Shown: in pieces, positions 27,565-37,176 of the stretch | Numbering within the stretch: position 1 is the stretch's first letter | Layout: the number at the start of each line of letters is the position of its first letter | NCBI GenBank assembly: GCA_016931115.1 | Contig: JAFGFM010000168.1 | Coordinates: forward strand, 1-37,849 | Source: Deltaproteobacteria bacterium | Lineage (GTDB): Bacteria > Desulfobacterota > DSM-4660 > Desulfatiglandales > HGW-15 | Direction of reading: 5' to 3' | Length of the DNA stretch: 37,849 nucleotides | Program-made: the position numbers and the translations under genes | The notes under the pieces: generated by a model | The model's input: only the letters and a program-made list of their open reading frames with translations | The model's database searches: none | What the model was told of the DNA's origin: nothing

Positions 27565-28677
27565 TCAGTTTATAATTTTACCCATGGATGAGCCATCATA
27601 GCCGGGGATGGCATCTATCTCTTTTCTTAAAACCTGTGATTGCAGGGCATTGGTAAGGATCTTTATTGTGGGGTGGTTCATCATATCATCAGGGATAACA
27701 AGGTCGCAGCGGACAGAGATAATTGGGACAAAACCCAGGTCATATGAATCAGCAACAGCCCTGAGACCCAGAGCAGCGTCCACTACGTTACAGGCCACCT
27801 TGCTTGCGCCATCCCGGTGTGATGTCACCTCATTCTGGTAGCCGTTTATAGCAGTGCCAGGTATCCCTGCCTTTTTTAATTCATCATCAAGCAGAACCCT
27901 TAAGGCCGCCCCCTGCTCCCGGTTTACAAACCGCACCATAGGTTGAGCCAGGTCAGCCACATTGCGGATACCAAGAGGGTTGTTCCTTGCCACGATCAGC
28001 CCCTCCTCCATAAAGGAAAATCCAAAGATATGGCATTTCATTGCCCCCAGTTTCTCATTGGTAATGGCCACATTGGCCTCAGCATCACCTGTATTATGCA
28101 GATGAGTACCCGCAACATGGGCATTGCCCTCTGCCAGGCCGTTTAAAGAGGCATGGCTTGATGCAAACAGGCAGTGGACACGAAAGTCAGGCGCTATGCG
28201 CGATATATGATTGGCCAGGATCTCAAAGGCAGGATCGCACCCCATAAGTATTATTGAATTGTTAAGCAGGTGTTCAGGGAGGAATATCTGTGTCTTTTCA
28301 CCGGCATTATCCAGCAGGCCATCAGCCGCTTTCAGGCCGAAGGATGTTGCCCTTGCGCCCTTGAGCGGGATACCAACCAGGCGGTCACGAACCTTTGCAA
28401 GAGAGAGCCGGGTTGAAGGGGTGTTATCACCGTTTATTACATGCACCGGCTGGGCATCCACTGGTTCATCCAGTATAAAAAGGTCTTCAACACGACACCC
28501 GAATAAGCGGGCGAGCTGAAGGGCAATGGCTGTATTTGGAAGGTAACGCCCTGATTCAATATCATAGATGGCCTGACGTTTTATGCCTATTATCTTTGCC
28601 AGCTCTTCCTGTGAGAGCTTCTTTTTAACCCGGTACTGCCTGAGGTTGCAAATAATCGTATTACCCTGCTGAGTCAT
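27565..28677 (-). CDS. XRE-type HTH regulator with C-terminal substrate-binding-like domain
   Basis: 370 residues. An N-terminal helix-turn-helix (about 10-62) reads KKLSQEELAKIIGIKRQAIY then IESGRYLP. From about 115 a PBP-like domain follows: IILMGCDPAFEILANHI, LNGLAEGNAHVAGTHL, EEGLIVARNNPLGI, RFVNREQGAALRVLLDDEL and VACNVVDAALGLRAVA. This C-terminal type also occurs fused to MoeA-like proteins and recalls ModA. GGGAG seven nt before ATG supports the start. It is divergent from modABC, so it probably controls molybdate or tungstate uptake in response to an oxyanion or cofactor (inference). A palindrome in its own leader is a candidate operator. Confidence 0.8.
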   Translation of the reverse strand: MTQQGNTIICNLRQYRVKKKLSQEELAKIIGIKRQAIYDIESGRYLPNTAIALQLARLFGCRVEDLFILDEPVDAQPVHVINGDNTPSTRLSLAKVRDRLVGIPLKGARATSFGLKAADGLLDNAGEKTQIFLPEHLLNNSIILMGCDPAFEILANHISRIAPDFRVHCLFASSHASLNGLAEGNAHVAGTHLHNTGDAEANVAITNEKLGAMKCHIFGFSFMEEGLIVARNNPLGIRNVADLAQPMVRFVNREQGAALRVLLDDELKKAGIPGTAINGYQNEVTSHRDGASKVACNVVDAALGLRAVADSYDLGFVPIISVRCDLVIPDDMMNHPTIKILTNALQSQVLRKEIDAIPGYDGSSMGKIIN

Positions 28678-28708: not shown

Positions 28709-28899
28709 GGAAAATAGTTAAGTTATTGGATTCCTTTATCTGTTTTGATTGCACGTGCCAGTATAAAATGTAATTGACAGTTAAATAATACAATTGTAGT
28801 TTCCTTATCAGGAATCATATGTTCTCAAAAAGAATTGGTCAAATAAATAATGCTGTACAAAAGATAGCATATAGAAGAGGCAGGAAAAAGGAGCAAAAT

Positions 28900-29697
28900 A
28901 TGGGCTATAAAAATAAAATGATTTTTCTTATTATCATCTGGTGTCTGCTGATTTGGCTTGTTGGTATCTCTCCAGTATCCTTTGCGGCACAGTGTGAGCA
29001 AAAGGTAACTGTATTTGCTGCTGCCTCAACAACCAATGCCATGACTGATGTGGGAGACCTGTTTGAAAATCATAAAATGGGAAAGGCCATTTTATCATTT
29101 GCATCAGCCTCAACTCTGGCAAAACAGATTGAACAGGGGGCGCCCGCTGATATATTTGTTTCTGCAAATTCAGAGTGGATGGATTATCTTGAATCAAGAA
29201 AACTGCTCGAACCTGGCACCAGGTTTGATTTTTTAAAAAATATCCTGATGCTCATTGCGCCGGTAACGAGCCCTATAGACCATATTGATTTGGTGAAAGG
29301 CCAGGATCTTGGAAAATATCTGGGTGATGGTCTTCTTTCTACAGGTGATCCGGATCATGTCCCGATAGGTAAATATGCTAAGGAGGCACTTATAAACTTA
29401 AGCATGTGGCAGGGCATTGAAAACAAGATAGCCAGGGCAAAGGATGTGCGCGCCGGTCTGGCCCTGGTGGAACGAGGCGAGGCGCCACTTGGTATAGTTT
29501 ACGCCTCTGATGTAAAAATATCAGACAAGGTAAAGGTTGTAGGGGTCTTCCCTGAGGAGAGTCATAAACCAATAACCTTTTCAGTAGCCATTATAGCAGG
29601 CAAAAAAAGCGCGGCAGCACTTGAATTCCTAGAGATGCTTAAAACTCCTGAGGCAAAGAATATTTTTACAAAATATGGTTTTATCGTAAACAAATAA
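28900..29697 (+). CDS. modA: Molybdate/tungstate ABC transporter periplasmic binding protein ModA
   Basis: 265 residues from the ATG at 28900, fixed by AAAAAGGAG seven nt upstream; a longer frame to 28819 lacks a comparable site. A signal peptide (about 8-27, cleavage after SFA) precedes the mature start QCEQKVTVFAAASTTNAM. SFASASTLAKQIEQGAPADI and VSANSEWMDYLE are the oxyanion-binding landmarks of ModA. Further on are GDPDHVPIGKYAKE and VERGEAPLGIVYASDV. Whether it prefers molybdate or tungstate cannot be told. First gene of a modABC operon. Confidence 0.92.
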   Translation: MGYKNKMIFLIIIWCLLIWLVGISPVSFAAQCEQKVTVFAAASTTNAMTDVGDLFENHKMGKAILSFASASTLAKQIEQGAPADIFVSANSEWMDYLESRKLLEPGTRFDFLKNILMLIAPVTSPIDHIDLVKGQDLGKYLGDGLLSTGDPDHVPIGKYAKEALINLSMWQGIENKIARAKDVRAGLALVERGEAPLGIVYASDVKISDKVKVVGVFPEESHKPITFSVAIIAGKKSAAALEFLEMLKTPEAKNIFTKYGFIVNK

Positions 29698-29718
29698 AAT
29701 TAAGTTTTACAGGTCATC

Positions 29719-30417
29719 ATGGCTTTTTTAAGTTTAACACCACTGGAACTGGAGGCCATCCGGTTAAGCCTGCTTGTTTCATTGTGGGCAGTAGCCGGTG
29801 GTCTACCATTTGGTATTGCTGTAGCATGGCTTCTATCACGCCATAATTTTCCGGGCAAACCCATTGTGGATGGCATTATTCATCTGCCGCTGGTTCTCCC
29901 TCCTGTGGTCATCGGGTATCTCCTTTTAATCCTGCTGGGGCGAAGGGGCGTAATAGGGGCATGGCTTTATGAATACTTAGGCATCACTATCGCCTTTACA
30001 TGGAAGGGCGCCGCAATAGCCGCTTCTTTAATGGCCTTTCCGCTCATGGTAAGGGCAATTCGCATTTCCATTGAGAATGTTGACAGGGGTCTTGAACAGG
30101 CTGCCCACACTCTGGGTGCCGGGCCTATAAGGGTTTTTTTTACAATCACCCTGCCATTGATTATACCCGGCATCATAACAGGCTTAATACTTTCTTTTGC
30201 GAGGAGCCTTGGGGAGTTTGGCGCCACCATTACCTTTGTGTCAAATATAAAGGGTGAGACGCAGACCCTTCCCCTGGCCCTTTATACCATGACACAAGTT
30301 CCAGGGGGTGAGATACCTGCGCTTCGTCTCTGCATTATATCTGTAATTATTGCCATGGCCGCCCTGATGGTTTCCGAGTTCCTGACCCGACATTTTTCAG
30401 GCCGTATCAGGGGTTAG
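29719..30417 (+). CDS. modB: Molybdate ABC transporter permease ModB
   Basis: 232 residues, about five to six membrane segments. The ATPase-coupling EAA loop reads EQAAHTLGAGPIRVFFTITL near residues 120-140, and FARSLGEFGATI is the typical ModB end of the loop region. It starts 22 bp after modA with a weak ribosome site and is followed three bases later by modC. Confidence 0.92.
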   Translation: MAFLSLTPLELEAIRLSLLVSLWAVAGGLPFGIAVAWLLSRHNFPGKPIVDGIIHLPLVLPPVVIGYLLLILLGRRGVIGAWLYEYLGITIAFTWKGAAIAASLMAFPLMVRAIRISIENVDRGLEQAAHTLGAGPIRVFFTITLPLIIPGIITGLILSFARSLGEFGATITFVSNIKGETQTLPLALYTMTQVPGGEIPALRLCIISVIIAMAALMVSEFLTRHFSGRIRG

Positions 30418-30420
30418 CAT

Positions 30421-31509
30421 ATGATTGATCTGAATATAAAAAAAAGAAATGGCCAGTTTCAGATTAATACGACGTTCGCATTCAGGCAGGCGGGTGTTAC
30501 AGCTATTATCGGTGAGTCAGGTGCAGGCAAGACCTCAATAATAAATATGGTGGCAGGACTTATGCGCCCTGATGATGGTCATATTATAATAAACGGGCGC
30601 ACCCTGTTTGATTCTGAGACCGGCTGTAATATCTCCCCGGAAAAAAGGCATATAGGTTATATCTTCCAGGATGGCAGGCTCTTTCCGCACCTTTCCGTGA
30701 GGCACAATCTGTTTTACGGGATGAACCTTATCCCCGGGCATGACCGCTTTATTACTGTTGACCAGGTTGTTGACCTGCTGGGTATAGGTCACCTGCTTAA
30801 ACGAATGCCATCAAACCTTTCCGGTGGAGAAAAGCAGCGGGTCGCCATAGGCAGGGCGCTTTTGACAAGCCCGCAATTTCTTCTGATGGATGAACCTCTT
30901 GCCTCACTTGATGAGGCGCGCAAATCCGATGTACTGCCCTTTATCGGTAAACTTACGAGCGAGTTTAAAATACCTATCCTTTATGTGAGCCACTCCCTGA
31001 ATGAGGTGCTCAATCTGGCAGATACTGTTGTTATACTCAAGGCAGGGAGTGTGATCGCCTATGGTGACGCAGATGAGGTCTTAAGCCGGCCTGATATGCA
31101 GCAGTTCCTGGGCACCTCAAATTATGGTGCAGTTATTCCCACTGTGGTGAAGGGGCAGAGCCATAATCTTACCACCCTTCATTTTCACGGGGGTGAACTC
31201 CATGTGCCTTCTCTGAACCTGGAAAAAGGGGCAAAGGTAGTGGTACTGATCAAGGCAAGGAATGTGGCCATATCCCTTGACCGGCCATTAAATACAAGCT
31301 TTCAGAATATCCTGCCAGCGCGGATCGATGCAATCATCGAAAGAGATGAGATGATGGTTGATATACGCCTTGATATAGGCTGCATGATAATAGCAAGGAT
31401 AACCTGTGCAGCAAGAGAATCCCTCGGGCTTAAGCCGGGACAGCAGGTTTTCGCATTGATAAAAGGTGTTGCTGTTTCAACTGGAAACCTCTCCATTGAA
31501 GATGAGTAA
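30421..31509 (+). CDS. modC: Molybdate ABC transporter ATPase ModC
   Basis: 362 residues. Walker A GESGAGKTS, signature LSGGEKQR, Walker B FLLMDEPLASLD and switch His in VSHSLNE are intact. The C-terminal ~70 residues (from about 290) form the TOBE domain expected of ModC, with ILPARIDAI and CAARESLGLKPGQQVFALIK. It begins three bases after modB, so the operon is tight. A promoter-hairpin element and strong bidirectional terminator follow. Confidence 0.92.
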   Translation: MIDLNIKKRNGQFQINTTFAFRQAGVTAIIGESGAGKTSIINMVAGLMRPDDGHIIINGRTLFDSETGCNISPEKRHIGYIFQDGRLFPHLSVRHNLFYGMNLIPGHDRFITVDQVVDLLGIGHLLKRMPSNLSGGEKQRVAIGRALLTSPQFLLMDEPLASLDEARKSDVLPFIGKLTSEFKIPILYVSHSLNEVLNLADTVVILKAGSVIAYGDADEVLSRPDMQQFLGTSNYGAVIPTVVKGQSHNLTTLHFHGGELHVPSLNLEKGAKVVVLIKARNVAISLDRPLNTSFQNILPARIDAIIERDEMMVDIRLDIGCMIIARITCAARESLGLKPGQQVFALIKGVAVSTGNLSIEDE

Positions 31510-31593
31510 AAAGTCCATAAACGCAAAATAGGGTTTAAAAATGAACTACCTTTAGTTGATGTTTAATTATTTTCATTTTAACATATATTATTA

Positions 31594-31690
31594 TTGACAT
31601 AAGGGTTATTTTTTTATATTTTCCACTTATCGGGTTTTTTGGATTTAGCCAGAAAGGCCGGAGGAGCTGCTCCACCGGCCTTTCCATTTA
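31594..31690 (+). ncRNA. Candidate small RNA element E1 (promoter plus hairpin)
   Basis: TTGACA (31594-31599), 17 bp and TATTTT (31617-31622) predict a start near 31629. A strong hairpin follows about 25 nt later (31653-31683). No gene follows on this strand. The module is homologous to 32707-32800: same ATTGACATAA start, same GGGTTTT..GATT.AGC stretch and a hairpin with two CCGG boxes 17 nt apart. A short stable RNA is a reasonable reading. Confidence 0.4.
31653..31683. terminator. Bidirectional terminator between modC and the molybdopterin-binding gene
   Basis: AAAGGCCGG (31653-31661) pairs with CCGGCCTTT (31675-31683). The interior GGAGC/GCTCC stem extends it, leaving almost no loop. It lies between convergent genes and can serve both strands. 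Confidence 0.75.
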
Positions 31691-31708
31691 TTTTCAGCAA
31701 AATAATTA

Positions 31709-32587
31709 TCACTGCTTGCCAAACCCGCATACAGGATAATAGCACTCTTCACATCTTGCACATAAACCGCCATGTCCAAGCGATAACACATACTCCCTGG
31801 TAACTGTTTCACCGGTTATTATCAATGGTAACACTAGATCAAAAATGCTGGCCCTGTGATACATAACACAACCAGGTAAACCCAGAACCGGTATGTTCCC
31901 AAGGTATGCTAGCAGGAACATTCCCCCTGGATATATGGGAACCCCGTATGTTACAATCTTTGCCCCGGTCTTCCTGATACTCAAGGGAGTCAGGTCATCC
32001 GGGTCCACGGACATCCCTCCTGTGAGGGCAATAAGGTCAGCCCCTTCGGAAGCAAGTTCATGAATAGCCGCGACGGTCTTTTCTACATCATCAGGTACAA
32101 ATACCTGCTTTATAACCTCACAGTTGAGCCTTGCGAATTTTTCTTTTAATATCGGCCCGAATTTATCCTTTATCCTTCCGCTGTATATTTCAGTACCGGT
32201 TGAAATAACGCCCACCCTCAAATTTCTTAACGCCTTTATTTCAATAACCGGGGAAAATTTCTTGCATATCTTTTCCGCCTCTCTGATATTCTTTTCAAGT
32301 GTTCCAAATGTGATAGTCCTCATTTCACCAACAGGTGTTTCAGTGGCAACAACATGATTCCCATGTAATGTAGAGAAGAATATGCCTTCAATGGAATTGA
32401 TTTTTAGGAGCGCCTCTTTGTTCACCTTGAGCACCCCTGGCCCGGTCGAAAAAAATCTGATCTGGCCTTCTCCCATATCTTTCAGTTTAATGCCATGCCC
32501 TGAAGCGGCCTTTGCAATTATTGCTGAAGCATCCTCTGCCTGTAAAAAATCGACATCAAAAGTACTTTTATGTTTGAAATCATTCAT
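31709..32587 (-). CDS. Molybdopterin-binding-fold protein (MoaB/MoeA/CinA-like) with Cys-rich tail
   Basis: 292 residues from the ATG at 32587 (GCAGGAG seven nt upstream). The central and C-terminal part is the MPT-binding fold: LRVGVISTGTEIYSGRIKDK, then LIALTGGMSVDPDDLTP and PGGMFLLAYLGNIPVLGLPG. The N-terminal ~130 residues are a separate domain, not the usual MoeA domains, and the protein is shorter than MoeA (about 400). The tail has CARCEECYYPVC, a CxxCxxCx4C cluster that could hold zinc or an iron-sulfur cluster. In this setting it may act in Mo/W cofactor assembly or sensing. It has its own promoter and is flanked by the two homologous elements E1 and E2. Confidence 0.8.
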   Translation of the reverse strand: MNDFKHKSTFDVDFLQAEDASAIIAKAASGHGIKLKDMGEGQIRFFSTGPGVLKVNKEALLKINSIEGIFFSTLHGNHVVATETPVGEMRTITFGTLEKNIREAEKICKKFSPVIEIKALRNLRVGVISTGTEIYSGRIKDKFGPILKEKFARLNCEVIKQVFVPDDVEKTVAAIHELASEGADLIALTGGMSVDPDDLTPLSIRKTGAKIVTYGVPIYPGGMFLLAYLGNIPVLGLPGCVMYHRASIFDLVLPLIITGETVTREYVLSLGHGGLCARCEECYYPVCGFGKQ

Positions 32588-32650
32588 ATGTTTTCTCCTG
32601 CAGCCAGACAAGCCGGACCATTCATTTAGGTGTATTAAGTATTTTCGCAA

Positions 32651-32679
32651 TGCATAGTATAAATATTATTTGCTGTCAA
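32651..32679 (-). promoter_or_regulatory. Promoter of the molybdopterin-binding gene
   Basis: On the minus strand TTGACA (32679-32674), 17 bp and TATGCA (32656-32651). It points away from element E2, whose -35 begins at 32707. Confidence 0.5.
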
Positions 32680-32706
32680 TAAACGACATTTTAATATGTA
32701 TTAATA

Positions 32707-32800
32707 TTGACATAAAACAGTGAAGACTCTATTGTCTATTAAAATCGAAAGGGTTTTCGATTCAGCAAAAAAACCGGGAGAGTTGCTTTCCCGGTTTTCT
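32707..32800 (+). ncRNA. Candidate small RNA element E2 (promoter, hairpin, terminator)
   Basis: TTGACA (32707-32712), 17 bp and TATTGT (32730-32735) predict a start near 32742. AATCGAAA (32743-32750) pairs with TTTCGATT (32755-32762). The terminator stem is AAACCGGGA (32771-32779)/TCCCGGTTT (32789-32797) followed by a T-rich stretch. No plus-strand gene follows for over 1.2 kb, so the product would be an RNA of about 55-60 nt. Homologous to E1. Confidence 0.45.
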
Positions 32801-33335
32801 ATTTGTGGGATATATTCTCAGCAACCACAGCAAATTCTTTAGAGCGTTTAGGACTTAAGAAAAGAGGTTGGATTTGTTATAAAGGCAACAAGCGCATGAT
32901 TGATGCATAATCACGCTTTTATTTTCATGGCTTAATCCCGGCTTACTTGAGTAACTATCTGATTATATTACCCTGGTAAAGAATTTTTATTATGTTAGGA
33001 TTTTTTATTAACATTTACAACTATAACTGGTAAAAAAAAACTCTTTATTTTGGCGTAATATATTGTATTTTTTATTTTTTTACATATCAACCTTTGAGCC
33101 CTTCTACATTTTTTTTATTCGTATTGAAACATATGCTGTCCAATGGGTGAAATGTCTTGACATGAAAAGTATGTTTTATGGTTTGTAATTCATCCTATAA
33201 TTGCCACCACTTTGCTACTATAACAGCAAAAAACACCATAAAATAAAAGAGGTCAAGAAATAATCTCCTGACCTCTAAGTTTTTGGTAGCATTGTATATT
33301 TTCACATCTAACTATCTGTTATTATTCCTATATTA
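32801..33335. other. AT-rich stretch without genes
   Basis: No reading frame of useful length on either strand. Contents: a TTGACA (33157-33162) without a convincing -10, and a terminator-like hairpin AGAGGTCA (33248-33255)/TGACCTCT (33269-33276) followed by AAGTTTTTGG on the plus strand. The stretch ends at a tRNA-like fragment. Confidence 0.5.
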
Positions 33336-33385
33336 CAGACTCATAATGAGGGGGGTCAGCGGTTCGATTCCGCTCAGTGGCTCCA
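33336..33385 (+). pseudogene. tRNA-like 3' fragment (T-arm, acceptor end, CCA)
   Basis: AGCGG-TTCGATT-CCGCT (33358-33374) is a perfect T-arm, followed by CAGTGGCT and CCA (33383-33385). A CTCATAA heptamer (33340-33346), as in Met-tRNA anticodon loops, lies upstream, but its flanks cannot pair and no D-arm or matching 5' acceptor strand precedes it. I read it as a remnant of a tRNA (less likely tmRNA) 3' end, as left at the attachment site of an integrated element. Confidence 0.5.
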
Positions 33386-35457: not shown

Positions 35458-37176
35458 CTAAAAATTGTGAACGCCGTCCAGCTCTGCATCTGTAAATGGG
35501 AACACCACATTATGCGGCGGCAGAGGCTCTTTCATAAAGAACTCAGGCAGTCTATCATCCTTGGCTGTAAGACCTGCCTTTTTGTTAAACTCCTTTTCCG
35601 CCTTAAGTATACGCACACCAAGGTTACGCAGGTCTTCCACCTTCCAGCTTGTGCCCAGCCTTGCGTTAATAAGCCTTATAAACATCTCCTTTGCATCAGG
35701 TGCAGCAATGGAATACATGGCAAAGAGGCACAGGCCCATACTGTCTGCCATTGCGCAGAAGATCTGGTTTTCTCTAGAGTTCTCAAGCTGCCCCTCTTTT
35801 TTAAGCGGATCAAGTATATGGCCCAGGTACATGGCCACCATGTTTCCTGCTGTATGGTCTGCCCCCATTGTTGATGTTGCAAAGGTTACTCCGTTACCGA
35901 TCATGCCCCTGGGGTCATAGGCAGCAATAGACTGGTTCTTGACTGCCGCAACCCTCGGATTATTAAAATGCTTTCCAACAGCGGATGGGCCGTCACCAAA
36001 TATCCTGCCCATTTCAGTGCCCTTTGCTATCTCATCCATTATCTCTATGGGGGCATTTTTGTCACCAAACTTTCTGTAGCCTGAATCCATTGCTACCGCT
36101 ATTGCAACGCCTGTGTTCATTGTGTCAAGGCCAATATCATCACAGAGAAAATCCATGCGGGCAATGACATCAAGATCATCTATACCGCACATACCGCCCA
36201 TTGCCCATACAGTTTCATACTCTATTGAGCTTGAAACATATTTTCCATTCTTATCATTAAAGACATTGGAACACCTTATAATACACTGTGAGCAGCCCAC
36301 ATGACCTGTCTGGCCGCCTCTCTCCTTTATTGTGTTTGCAAGGGCCTCTCCGCTTATCTTCTGCCACCCCTCAAACTCACTTTTTGTTGCATTATAACAT
36401 GGAAATGCGCCCATCAGATTTACAGGGGCTACCAGCGCAGGGGTGCCAAATGCAGGAAGGAGTTCACCCTCAAACGGGTTTGCCTTGACAAGGGCTGCAA
36501 ATGCCTTTGTTGCCTCATTGAAGGTCTCCTTATCAACCAGCGGATCAGCCTTTTTCCCATTCTGGGGGATAATAACCGCCTTTAAACCCTTTGAACCCAT
36601 AACCGCACCTATGCCGCCTCTGGCTGCTGCCCTGCATGGACGTTTATCAGTATCGCTCCCCTGGATTGATGCTGACTTCATCATATATTCGCCTGCGGGC
36701 CCGATACAAAGAACCGCATTTTTATCACCGTATTTTGCATGGAGCTTTTCAACAAGGGCATAGGTTCTCATGCCTTTATATTCAGATGCATCTATCAGCT
36801 CCGCATTGCCCTCAAGATCAAGCTTCAGGATGCTTAAATCACCGGCCTTAGGCTTACCATCAACTATAATCGCCCCGATACCAAGCTTCCCCAGTGCACC
36901 CCCCGAAGTGCCGCCCACATTGGCCTCCTTGATACCGCCTGTTAAAGGGCTCTTTGCGCCTATAGATACCCTGCTTGAGTTGAACATGTTTGTCCCGCAG
37001 AACATTCCTGTAGCAAAAATAAGTTTATTGTCAGGGCCGAGCGAATCACAACTGGCTGGTACTTCCTTATTGATCATTATAGAGGTAAGCCCTCTGCCAC
37101 CAATACCTTTATATTCGTCGGGCATTGCCTCAACCTTGATTGTCTTTGTATTCATATTTACTCTGATAAAATTCAT
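35458..37176 (-). CDS. Aldehyde:ferredoxin oxidoreductase family, tungsten-pterin enzyme
   Basis: 572 residues. The N-terminal domain has GGRGLTSIMINKE, NMFNSSRVSIGAKSP and EANVGGTSGGALGKLGIGAI, the pterin-embracing part. CSQCIIRC with a distal Cys (DSMGLC) gives the four ligands of the [4Fe-4S] cluster. The family oxidises aldehydes to acids, or reduces acids, with ferredoxin; members usually hold tungsten bis-pterin. The length is slightly short of the archaeal enzymes (about 600). GGAGGAG before ATG and an excellent promoter support expression. MoaD-like downstream and the alcohol dehydrogenase opposite complete an alcohol/aldehyde/acid set. Confidence 0.9.
   Translation of the reverse strand: MNFIRVNMNTKTIKVEAMPDEYKGIGGRGLTSIMINKEVPASCDSLGPDNKLIFATGMFCGTNMFNSSRVSIGAKSPLTGGIKEANVGGTSGGALGKLGIGAIIVDGKPKAGDLSILKLDLEGNAELIDASEYKGMRTYALVEKLHAKYGDKNAVLCIGPAGEYMMKSASIQGSDTDKRPCRAAARGGIGAVMGSKGLKAVIIPQNGKKADPLVDKETFNEATKAFAALVKANPFEGELLPAFGTPALVAPVNLMGAFPCYNATKSEFEGWQKISGEALANTIKERGGQTGHVGCSQCIIRCSNVFNDKNGKYVSSSIEYETVWAMGGMCGIDDLDVIARMDFLCDDIGLDTMNTGVAIAVAMDSGYRKFGDKNAPIEIMDEIAKGTEMGRIFGDGPSAVGKHFNNPRVAAVKNQSIAAYDPRGMIGNGVTFATSTMGADHTAGNMVAMYLGHILDPLKKEGQLENSRENQIFCAMADSMGLCLFAMYSIAAPDAKEMFIRLINARLGTSWKVEDLRNLGVRILKAEKEFNKKAGLTAKDDRLPEFFMKEPLPPHNVVFPFTDAELDGVHNF

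Follow-up and report, generated by a model that had tools for sequence, protein, structure and literature searches.

Putative small-RNA genes of one family in a molybdenum- and tungsten-related gene setting of two deltaproteobacterial sister species

In this study, two promoter-hairpin units, E1 and E2, were analyzed in a stretch of 37,849 nucleotides (hereafter the window), which is contig C221 of a draft deltaproteobacterial genome of 5.18 Mb (G000, the home genome). We propose, with moderate confidence, that a single family of small-RNA genes has three members in this genome, E1 and E2 among them, and that the family probably adjusts the uptake or use of molybdate and tungstate. The parts of this proposal differ in strength. 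Judged from their sequence features, the units are likely to be small-RNA genes, and a role as dedicated regulators of molybdenum and tungsten (Mo/W) is put forward only tentatively. The first-pass annotation of the window had suggested a small-RNA family tied to Mo/W genes. The family part of this suggestion held: a third copy and copies in a sister species were found, tail and hairpin are conserved in two of the three counterpart pairs, the stem carries double changes, and the units lie in a setting of Mo/W genes. The tie to Mo/W is one of location only.

The features of the window that concern E1 and E2 are as follows.

27565-28677, minus strand: regulator with a helix-turn-helix and a PBP_like domain (Pfam PF01381, PF12727), divergent from modABC
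28819-31509, plus strand: modABC molybdate transporter genes, upstream of E1 (NCBIfam modA, modB and modC equivalogs over cut-off)
31581-31602, plus strand: 22-bp block of E1, ACATATATTATTATTGACATAA, lying over the -35 box and common to all copies (pattern search, at most 3 mismatches)
31594-31622, plus strand: sigma-70-like promoter of E1, TTGACA-17-TATTTT (consensus match)
31629-31690, plus strand: putative small RNA of E1, with a tail (inferred start at about 31629) and a terminator-type hairpin at 31652-31684
31709-32650, minus strand: gene with a MoCF_biosynth domain (the MoCF gene) between E1 and E2 (Pfam PF00994, E 4e-26)
32694-32715, plus strand: 22-bp block of E2, ATATGTATTAATATTGACATAA, which departs from the consensus at 3 positions and diverges from the promoter of the MoCF gene
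32707-32735, plus strand: sigma-70-like promoter of E2, TTGACA-17-TATTGT (consensus match)
32742-32800, plus strand: putative small RNA of E2, with a tail (inferred start at about 32742) and a hairpin whose stem spans 32770-32798

E1 has modC on one side and the 3' end of the MoCF gene on the other, and its block starts 72 bp past the last modABC stop codon. E2 is located upstream of the MoCF gene and is oriented away from it. The sequence ATTGACATAA, reported earlier as shared by the two units, has just two occurrences in the window, 31593-31602 and 32706-32715. The sigma-70-like elements were likewise confirmed, and each unit has a perfect TTGACA, a 17-nt spacer and a -10 element of the TAT type. 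The predicted RNAs are about 56-58 nt long. Their terminator-type hairpins are present as described, and the folds were better than those of 200 of 200 shuffles (z -3.7 for E1 and -4.5 for E2). It had also been stated that no gene stands behind the units, and this is correct for both: E1 reads into a convergent gene from its 3' end, and E2 is followed by about 600 bp with no listed same-strand ORF of at least 80 aa. The resemblance between E1 and E2 was borderline when taken alone: its best local score was 29, and 2000 dinucleotide shuffles reached 27 at most. It became decisive because further copies were found.

An initial exact pattern matched E1 and E2 alone in the home genome. The first-pass annotation had proposed a check for further copies in this genome and a model search of related genomes, and both succeeded. 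A model built from E1, E2 and the sister copies R1-R3 detected a third home copy, E3, close to a contig end (G000:C225:11989-12114, minus strand; E 7e-13). The sister genome of the same genus (G002) carries R1, R2 and R3 on one contig, which gives three homologous copies per genome. The order on this contig is methylase, R3, R2, MoCF gene, R1, modCBA, regulator. By sequence, R1 is the counterpart of E1 and R3 that of E3; R2 corresponds to E2 by position, and their sequence similarity is weak. Five of the six copies flank modABC or the MoCF gene, or follow the adjoining tetrapyrrole-methylase gene, and the sixth, E3, adjoins a cluster with TupA-like, TonB and FmdE genes. R3 lies directly after the methylase stop codon, and the hairpins of E1 and R1 lie between tail-to-tail genes.

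The six copies have a common anatomy. All of them match the promoter consensus TTGACA, exactly 17 nt, and a -10 box starting with TAT. The 22-bp block (consensus ACATATATTATTNTTGACATAA) had three sites with at most 3 mismatches in the home genome, all of them in E copies, and five in the sister genome, namely R1-R3, the opposite strand of the R3 promoter, and one site on contig C82. The reversed block used as a control gave none and three sites, respectively. Within the two genomes, the block is essentially confined to the family copies. The 5' tail is about 23-33 nt long and, in most copies, unpaired in folding; that of E2 forms a small hairpin of its own. It is followed in all copies by a terminator-type hairpin of 31-35 nt, with a stem of 14-16 pairs, 29-38 nt past the -10 box. 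Several copies have a weak U-tract behind this hairpin. Assuming a start 7 nt past the -10 box, the predicted RNA is 56-68 nt long to the hairpin end. The hairpin has a fixed size and a GAG-NUG-CUC tip (with one G-U in E2), which is absent from the other GGCCGG hairpins of the two genomes. In the hairpin alignment, 94.4% of the cells pair and four pairs are doubly changed, and pairing falls to 46-68% when the partner is slid by 1-3 columns. These counts are supportive of a conserved stem, not proof, as they come from six related sequences.

Some details reported for E1 and E2 hold for these two units and not for the whole family. CCGG boxes 17 nt apart are found in both and in five of the six copies, and R2 has CCAG on one side. 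TCAGCAA follows E1 and E2, but it does not stand just after R1, R2, R3 or E3. The stretch GGGTTTT..GATT.AGC is shared by E1 and E2, and also by R1, but not by the other half of the family. Accordingly, two tail types can be told apart: GGGTTTT..GATT in E1, R1 and E2, and CTATTTCTTCC in E3, R3 and R2.

The identity between counterparts differs along the unit. For E1/R1, it is 95% in the block, 64% in the spacer and -10 box, 90% in the tail, 94% in the hairpin, and 44% in the next 40 nt. For E3/R3, the corresponding values are 100%, 85%, 85%, 91%, and 50%, and for E2/R2 they are 77%, 46%, 53%, 80%, and 55%. These segment identities indicate that two pairs, E1/R1 and E3/R3, behave like functional RNAs, and that what E2/R2 retains is chiefly the hairpin, together with part of the promoter block. 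No Rfam family matched the window at the gathering score, and none matched E1, E2, E3 or R1-R3 at E values up to 0.5 (window, L129 and L131 searched).

A nucleotide profile trained on R1-R3 alone was run against 300.8 kb of the home genome. Its best matches were E3 (7.1e-25), E1 (4.8e-20), and E2 (1.3e-7), and the weaker matches were hairpin reverse strands and one terminator beside E3, nothing else. The converse profile, trained on the home copies, recovered R1, R3 and R2. When the region up to the -10 box was left out of the R1-R3 profile, E3 (1.2e-14) and E1 (2.7e-14) were still top-ranked, and E2 (1.9e-5) stood behind two reverse-strand matches. The window, L129 and L131 were already known to contain copies when they were profile-searched. 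A family-blind sample of 543 kb, made up of 20 other stretches from each genome, was also searched. Model R2 found nothing below E 0.78 in this sample, and a promoter-plus-hairpin scan of it gave six weak matches, none with the perfect TTGACA that all six family copies have.

Model R1 gave strong matches in the home and sister genomes only among 17 genomes of the taxonomic family, and model R2 did the same among 85 genomes of the order. These searches scored up to 150 (41 under stricter filters) of hundreds to thousands of first-look candidates, and the absence outside the genus is not airtight because only part of the candidates was scored. With at most 3 mismatches, the 22-bp block had 21 matches outside the genus in the 85 genomes; the reversed-block control had eight matches, three of them in the sister genome. 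Seventeen of the 21 were inspected by eye, and no comparable unit was seen. The best E value was 0.7 among 80 named MoCF-gene loci and 0.05 among 43 viral contigs picked by a loose pattern, where the matches were AT-rich and were taken as chance. Weak model matches on G000:C132 and G002:C115 were rejected as copies, being ordinary GGCCGG hairpins, and those in G008 and G071 were rejected because they looked unrelated. Among the candidates scored, the family appears to be restricted to the genus, in whose two sampled species alone it was found among the 85 genomes of the order. As no more than two genomes carry it, the evidence from conservation has little depth.

The neighboring genes place the copies in a metal-related setting. 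The MoCF gene has an 85% identical orthologue at the same position in the sister genome, and its nearest named relatives are deltaproteobacterial MAGs with about 53% identity. A MoCF paralogue with 66% identity occurs at G000:C69:16589-17425 and G002:C128:54933-55769, and no family copy was detected beside it. The regulator with helix-turn-helix and PBP_like domains is, by its position only, a candidate controller of the 22-bp block. No such block was found at either the modA or the MoCF promoter, which leaves a common Mo/W regulator hypothetical. These two promoters (window 28752-28800 and 32650-32690) have TTGACAG..AAATAATA in common in both species, which is possibly a common operator. The word AATAATA was spotted by eye in the E, modA and MoCF promoters and is too AT-rich to judge.

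Downstream of E3, in the same direction, comes an FmdE-family gene; its cluster also encodes a TupA-like binding protein, whose NCBIfam match fell below the cut-off, as well as a tetrapyrrole methylase and a TonB receptor. The matching place in the sister genome has no FmdE gene. Since R3 directly follows the methylase gene there, with no FmdE gene between, FmdE may have been lost or gained between GGCCGG hairpins. The tetrapyrrole-methylase-family protein (L129:4103-5095) has an apparent N-terminal signal sequence and adjoins the TonB and TupA-like genes, a company that is unusual for a cobalamin-type enzyme. The terminator after its gene (L129:5104-5167) resembles a decayed family copy (nhmmer 0.0022).

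Matches to the AOR family (PF01314), all over the cut-off, numbered 17 in the home genome and 20 in the sister genome, which we take to be unusually many. One of the 17 lies in the window at 35458-37176. Matches to PF00384, fragments included, numbered 12 and 11. Neither Hfq (PF17209) nor ProQ (PF04352) was detected in either of the two genomes, which are drafts of about 98% completeness; known control genomes were matched.

We believe that the following course of events would account for these data. The 22-bp block would be a regulator site or a strong upstream element, and the copies would then respond together. The RNAs would be released as short transcripts and act in trans, and their differing tails would pair with different mRNAs. 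As neither Hfq nor ProQ was detected, any such pairing would probably do without them. The most likely role is the adjustment of molybdate or tungstate uptake or use, because the copies lie amid modABC, a gene for a molybdopterin-binding-domain protein and TupA-like, TonB and FmdE genes, and because the two genomes encode 17 and 20 AOR-family members. The E1 hairpin probably doubles as a transcript-end signal between modABC and the convergent MoCF gene.

Duplexes between the six tails and gene start regions were predicted with ViennaRNA, with background sets of 232 genes in the home genome and 237 in the sister genome and gene starts called by a crude script. For the AOR-family set, 15 loci were fetched in each genome (from 17 matches in the home genome and 20 in the sister genome), of which 14 and 15, respectively, were used. 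The molybdopterin-oxidoreductase set, from which second fragments and sub-cut-off matches were left out (3 of 12 and 3 of 11), held nine and eight genes. Against the background, AOR genes were enriched for R2 (p<0.001) and R3 (p=0.003), but neither tail was clearly better than its shuffled versions (5 of 60 as good for R2 and 35 of 60 for R3). On the molybdopterin genes, none of 60 and five of 400 shuffles were as good as E3; its counterpart R3 (6 of 60 and 85 of 400) did not match this signal. The tails of E1, R1 and E2 gave no target signal. Given six tails and three gene sets, the tail signals do not reach significance. The orthologous pair L253/L252 is a lead only: it ranked 3 of 232 and 2 of 237, and its predicted duplex spans the same start region in each species. 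Near the locus in the sister genome, a rank of 5 of 237 was obtained both by modA as a target of R2 and by the MoCF gene as a target of R3. The home genome did not repeat these ranks, and the near-locus targets were thus inconsistent across species.

Other reasons for the conservation could apply, as the part common to all copies is mostly promoter and terminator. The copies may be local transcription-control DNA, that is, terminators for the modABC, MoCF and tetrapyrrole-methylase genes, each after a co-regulated promoter, with the RNA as a functionless by-product. The E1 and R1 hairpins between tail-to-tail genes and the position of R3 directly past the methylase stop would suit this, conservation across copies is highest in the hairpin and promoter, and both genomes have further GGCCGG-type hairpins. 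However, a mere terminator requires no promoter with a conserved 22-bp block, E2 and R2 are found at the promoter end of the MoCF gene, with nothing there to terminate, the tails are conserved in two of the three pairs, and the GAG-NUG-CUC tip, which the other GGCCGG hairpins lack, is retained. We regard this explanation as unlikely, yet worth serious consideration. RNAs of the CsrB/RsmZ type bind and titrate an RNA-binding protein, and the constant hairpin might be a decoy of this sort, with variable tails that matter little. The presence of several copies, whose hairpin size and tip are fixed across paralogues while the tails diverge, would agree with a decoy. It is nonetheless improbable: GGA motifs are mostly within the stem, there is one main hairpin and not many, and neither Hfq nor ProQ was detected.

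That the units are attenuators or leaders of a downstream gene is very improbable. The same-direction FmdE-family gene behind E3 could be read in this way, but the other five copies have no close same-strand gene behind them (R2 is followed by R3 only), and the matching place in the sister genome has no FmdE gene. The first-pass annotation had also offered direct repeats left by insertion of the gene between E1 and E2. Two copies do flank one gene. Against such an insertion, or a mobile repeat, copies occur beyond the gene flanks (R3 beside R2, and E3 on another contig), the unit is long (about 95-120 bp) and of low identity rather than a short exact duplication, no terminal inverted repeats were seen by eye, the positions are common to both species, and the MoCF paralogue on C69 and C128 has no model match. 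This origin is hardly credible.

Two further elements were noticed. A segment at window 33335-33385 resembles the 3' half of a tRNA gene, similar to tRNA-Met, with the anticodon loop CTCATAA, the T-arm GGTTCGATTCC and an acceptor end. ARAGORN found no tRNA in the window, and the half may have been left behind by an integrated element. Another orphan unit, distinct from the family, occurs at G000:C64:17386-17518 (L207:2887-3019, minus strand) and at G002:C85:34109-34240 (L208). It has TTGACA-17-TATTAT, a well-conserved stretch and then a GGCCGGGAG hairpin, is conserved between both species, and looks like another small-RNA gene.

Should the RNAs be expressed and respond to Mo or W, a bacterium with 17 AOR-family matches in which neither Hfq nor ProQ is detectable would possess an RNA regulator dedicated to these metals, and the sharing of Mo/W among enzymes in tungsten-rich anaerobes would become directly testable. 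A more far-reaching form of the proposal is that a dedicated Mo/W-responsive family of sibling small RNAs in an uptake locus re-allocates scarce Mo/W among an unusually large number of Mo/W enzymes without Hfq or ProQ. This would be a counterpart of the iron sparing by RyhB, and we offer it as a doubtful possibility. The Moco riboswitch is an instance of RNA-level control connected to the molybdenum cofactor. Unlike it, the present units have no Rfam match, precede no Moco gene, and have a simple hairpin.

In the open-licence literature, as far as the accessible portions of the papers go, no small RNA described as Mo- or W-responsive was found. The consulted sections of a computational survey of non-coding RNAs in a sulfate reducer did not mention molybdenum or tungsten (PMC11124144), and those of two further papers contained no Mo/W-responsive small RNA (PMC9765008, PMC8139620). 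According to the available excerpts, HrrF of Haemophilus influenzae is a Fur-regulated small RNA that down-regulates modABC and whose stability is Hfq-independent (PMC4144887). The present family is similar in being linked to molybdate uptake genes, although here the link is location. It differs in being multicopy, whereas HrrF is iron-responsive via Fur, and the two are likened by description, not by sequence. VaRyhB of Vibrio anguillarum is iron-controlled, and the portion of the report consulted describes an effect on molybdenum-cofactor biosynthesis genes (PMC11790442). The Mo-related setting is alike, but VaRyhB is under iron control, and again the likeness is one of description and not of structure. 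The Neisseria siblings NgncR_162/163 share 78% identity, form three stem-loops and bind Hfq, as given in the accessible part of that study (PMC9973317). Like them, the present family has several related copies, some of them adjacent, with shared structure and partly different sequence; unlike them, it has one main hairpin and differing tail types, and no Hfq gene was detected. Overall, intergenic multicopy small RNAs are a known kind, and the present family and its setting appear to be new.
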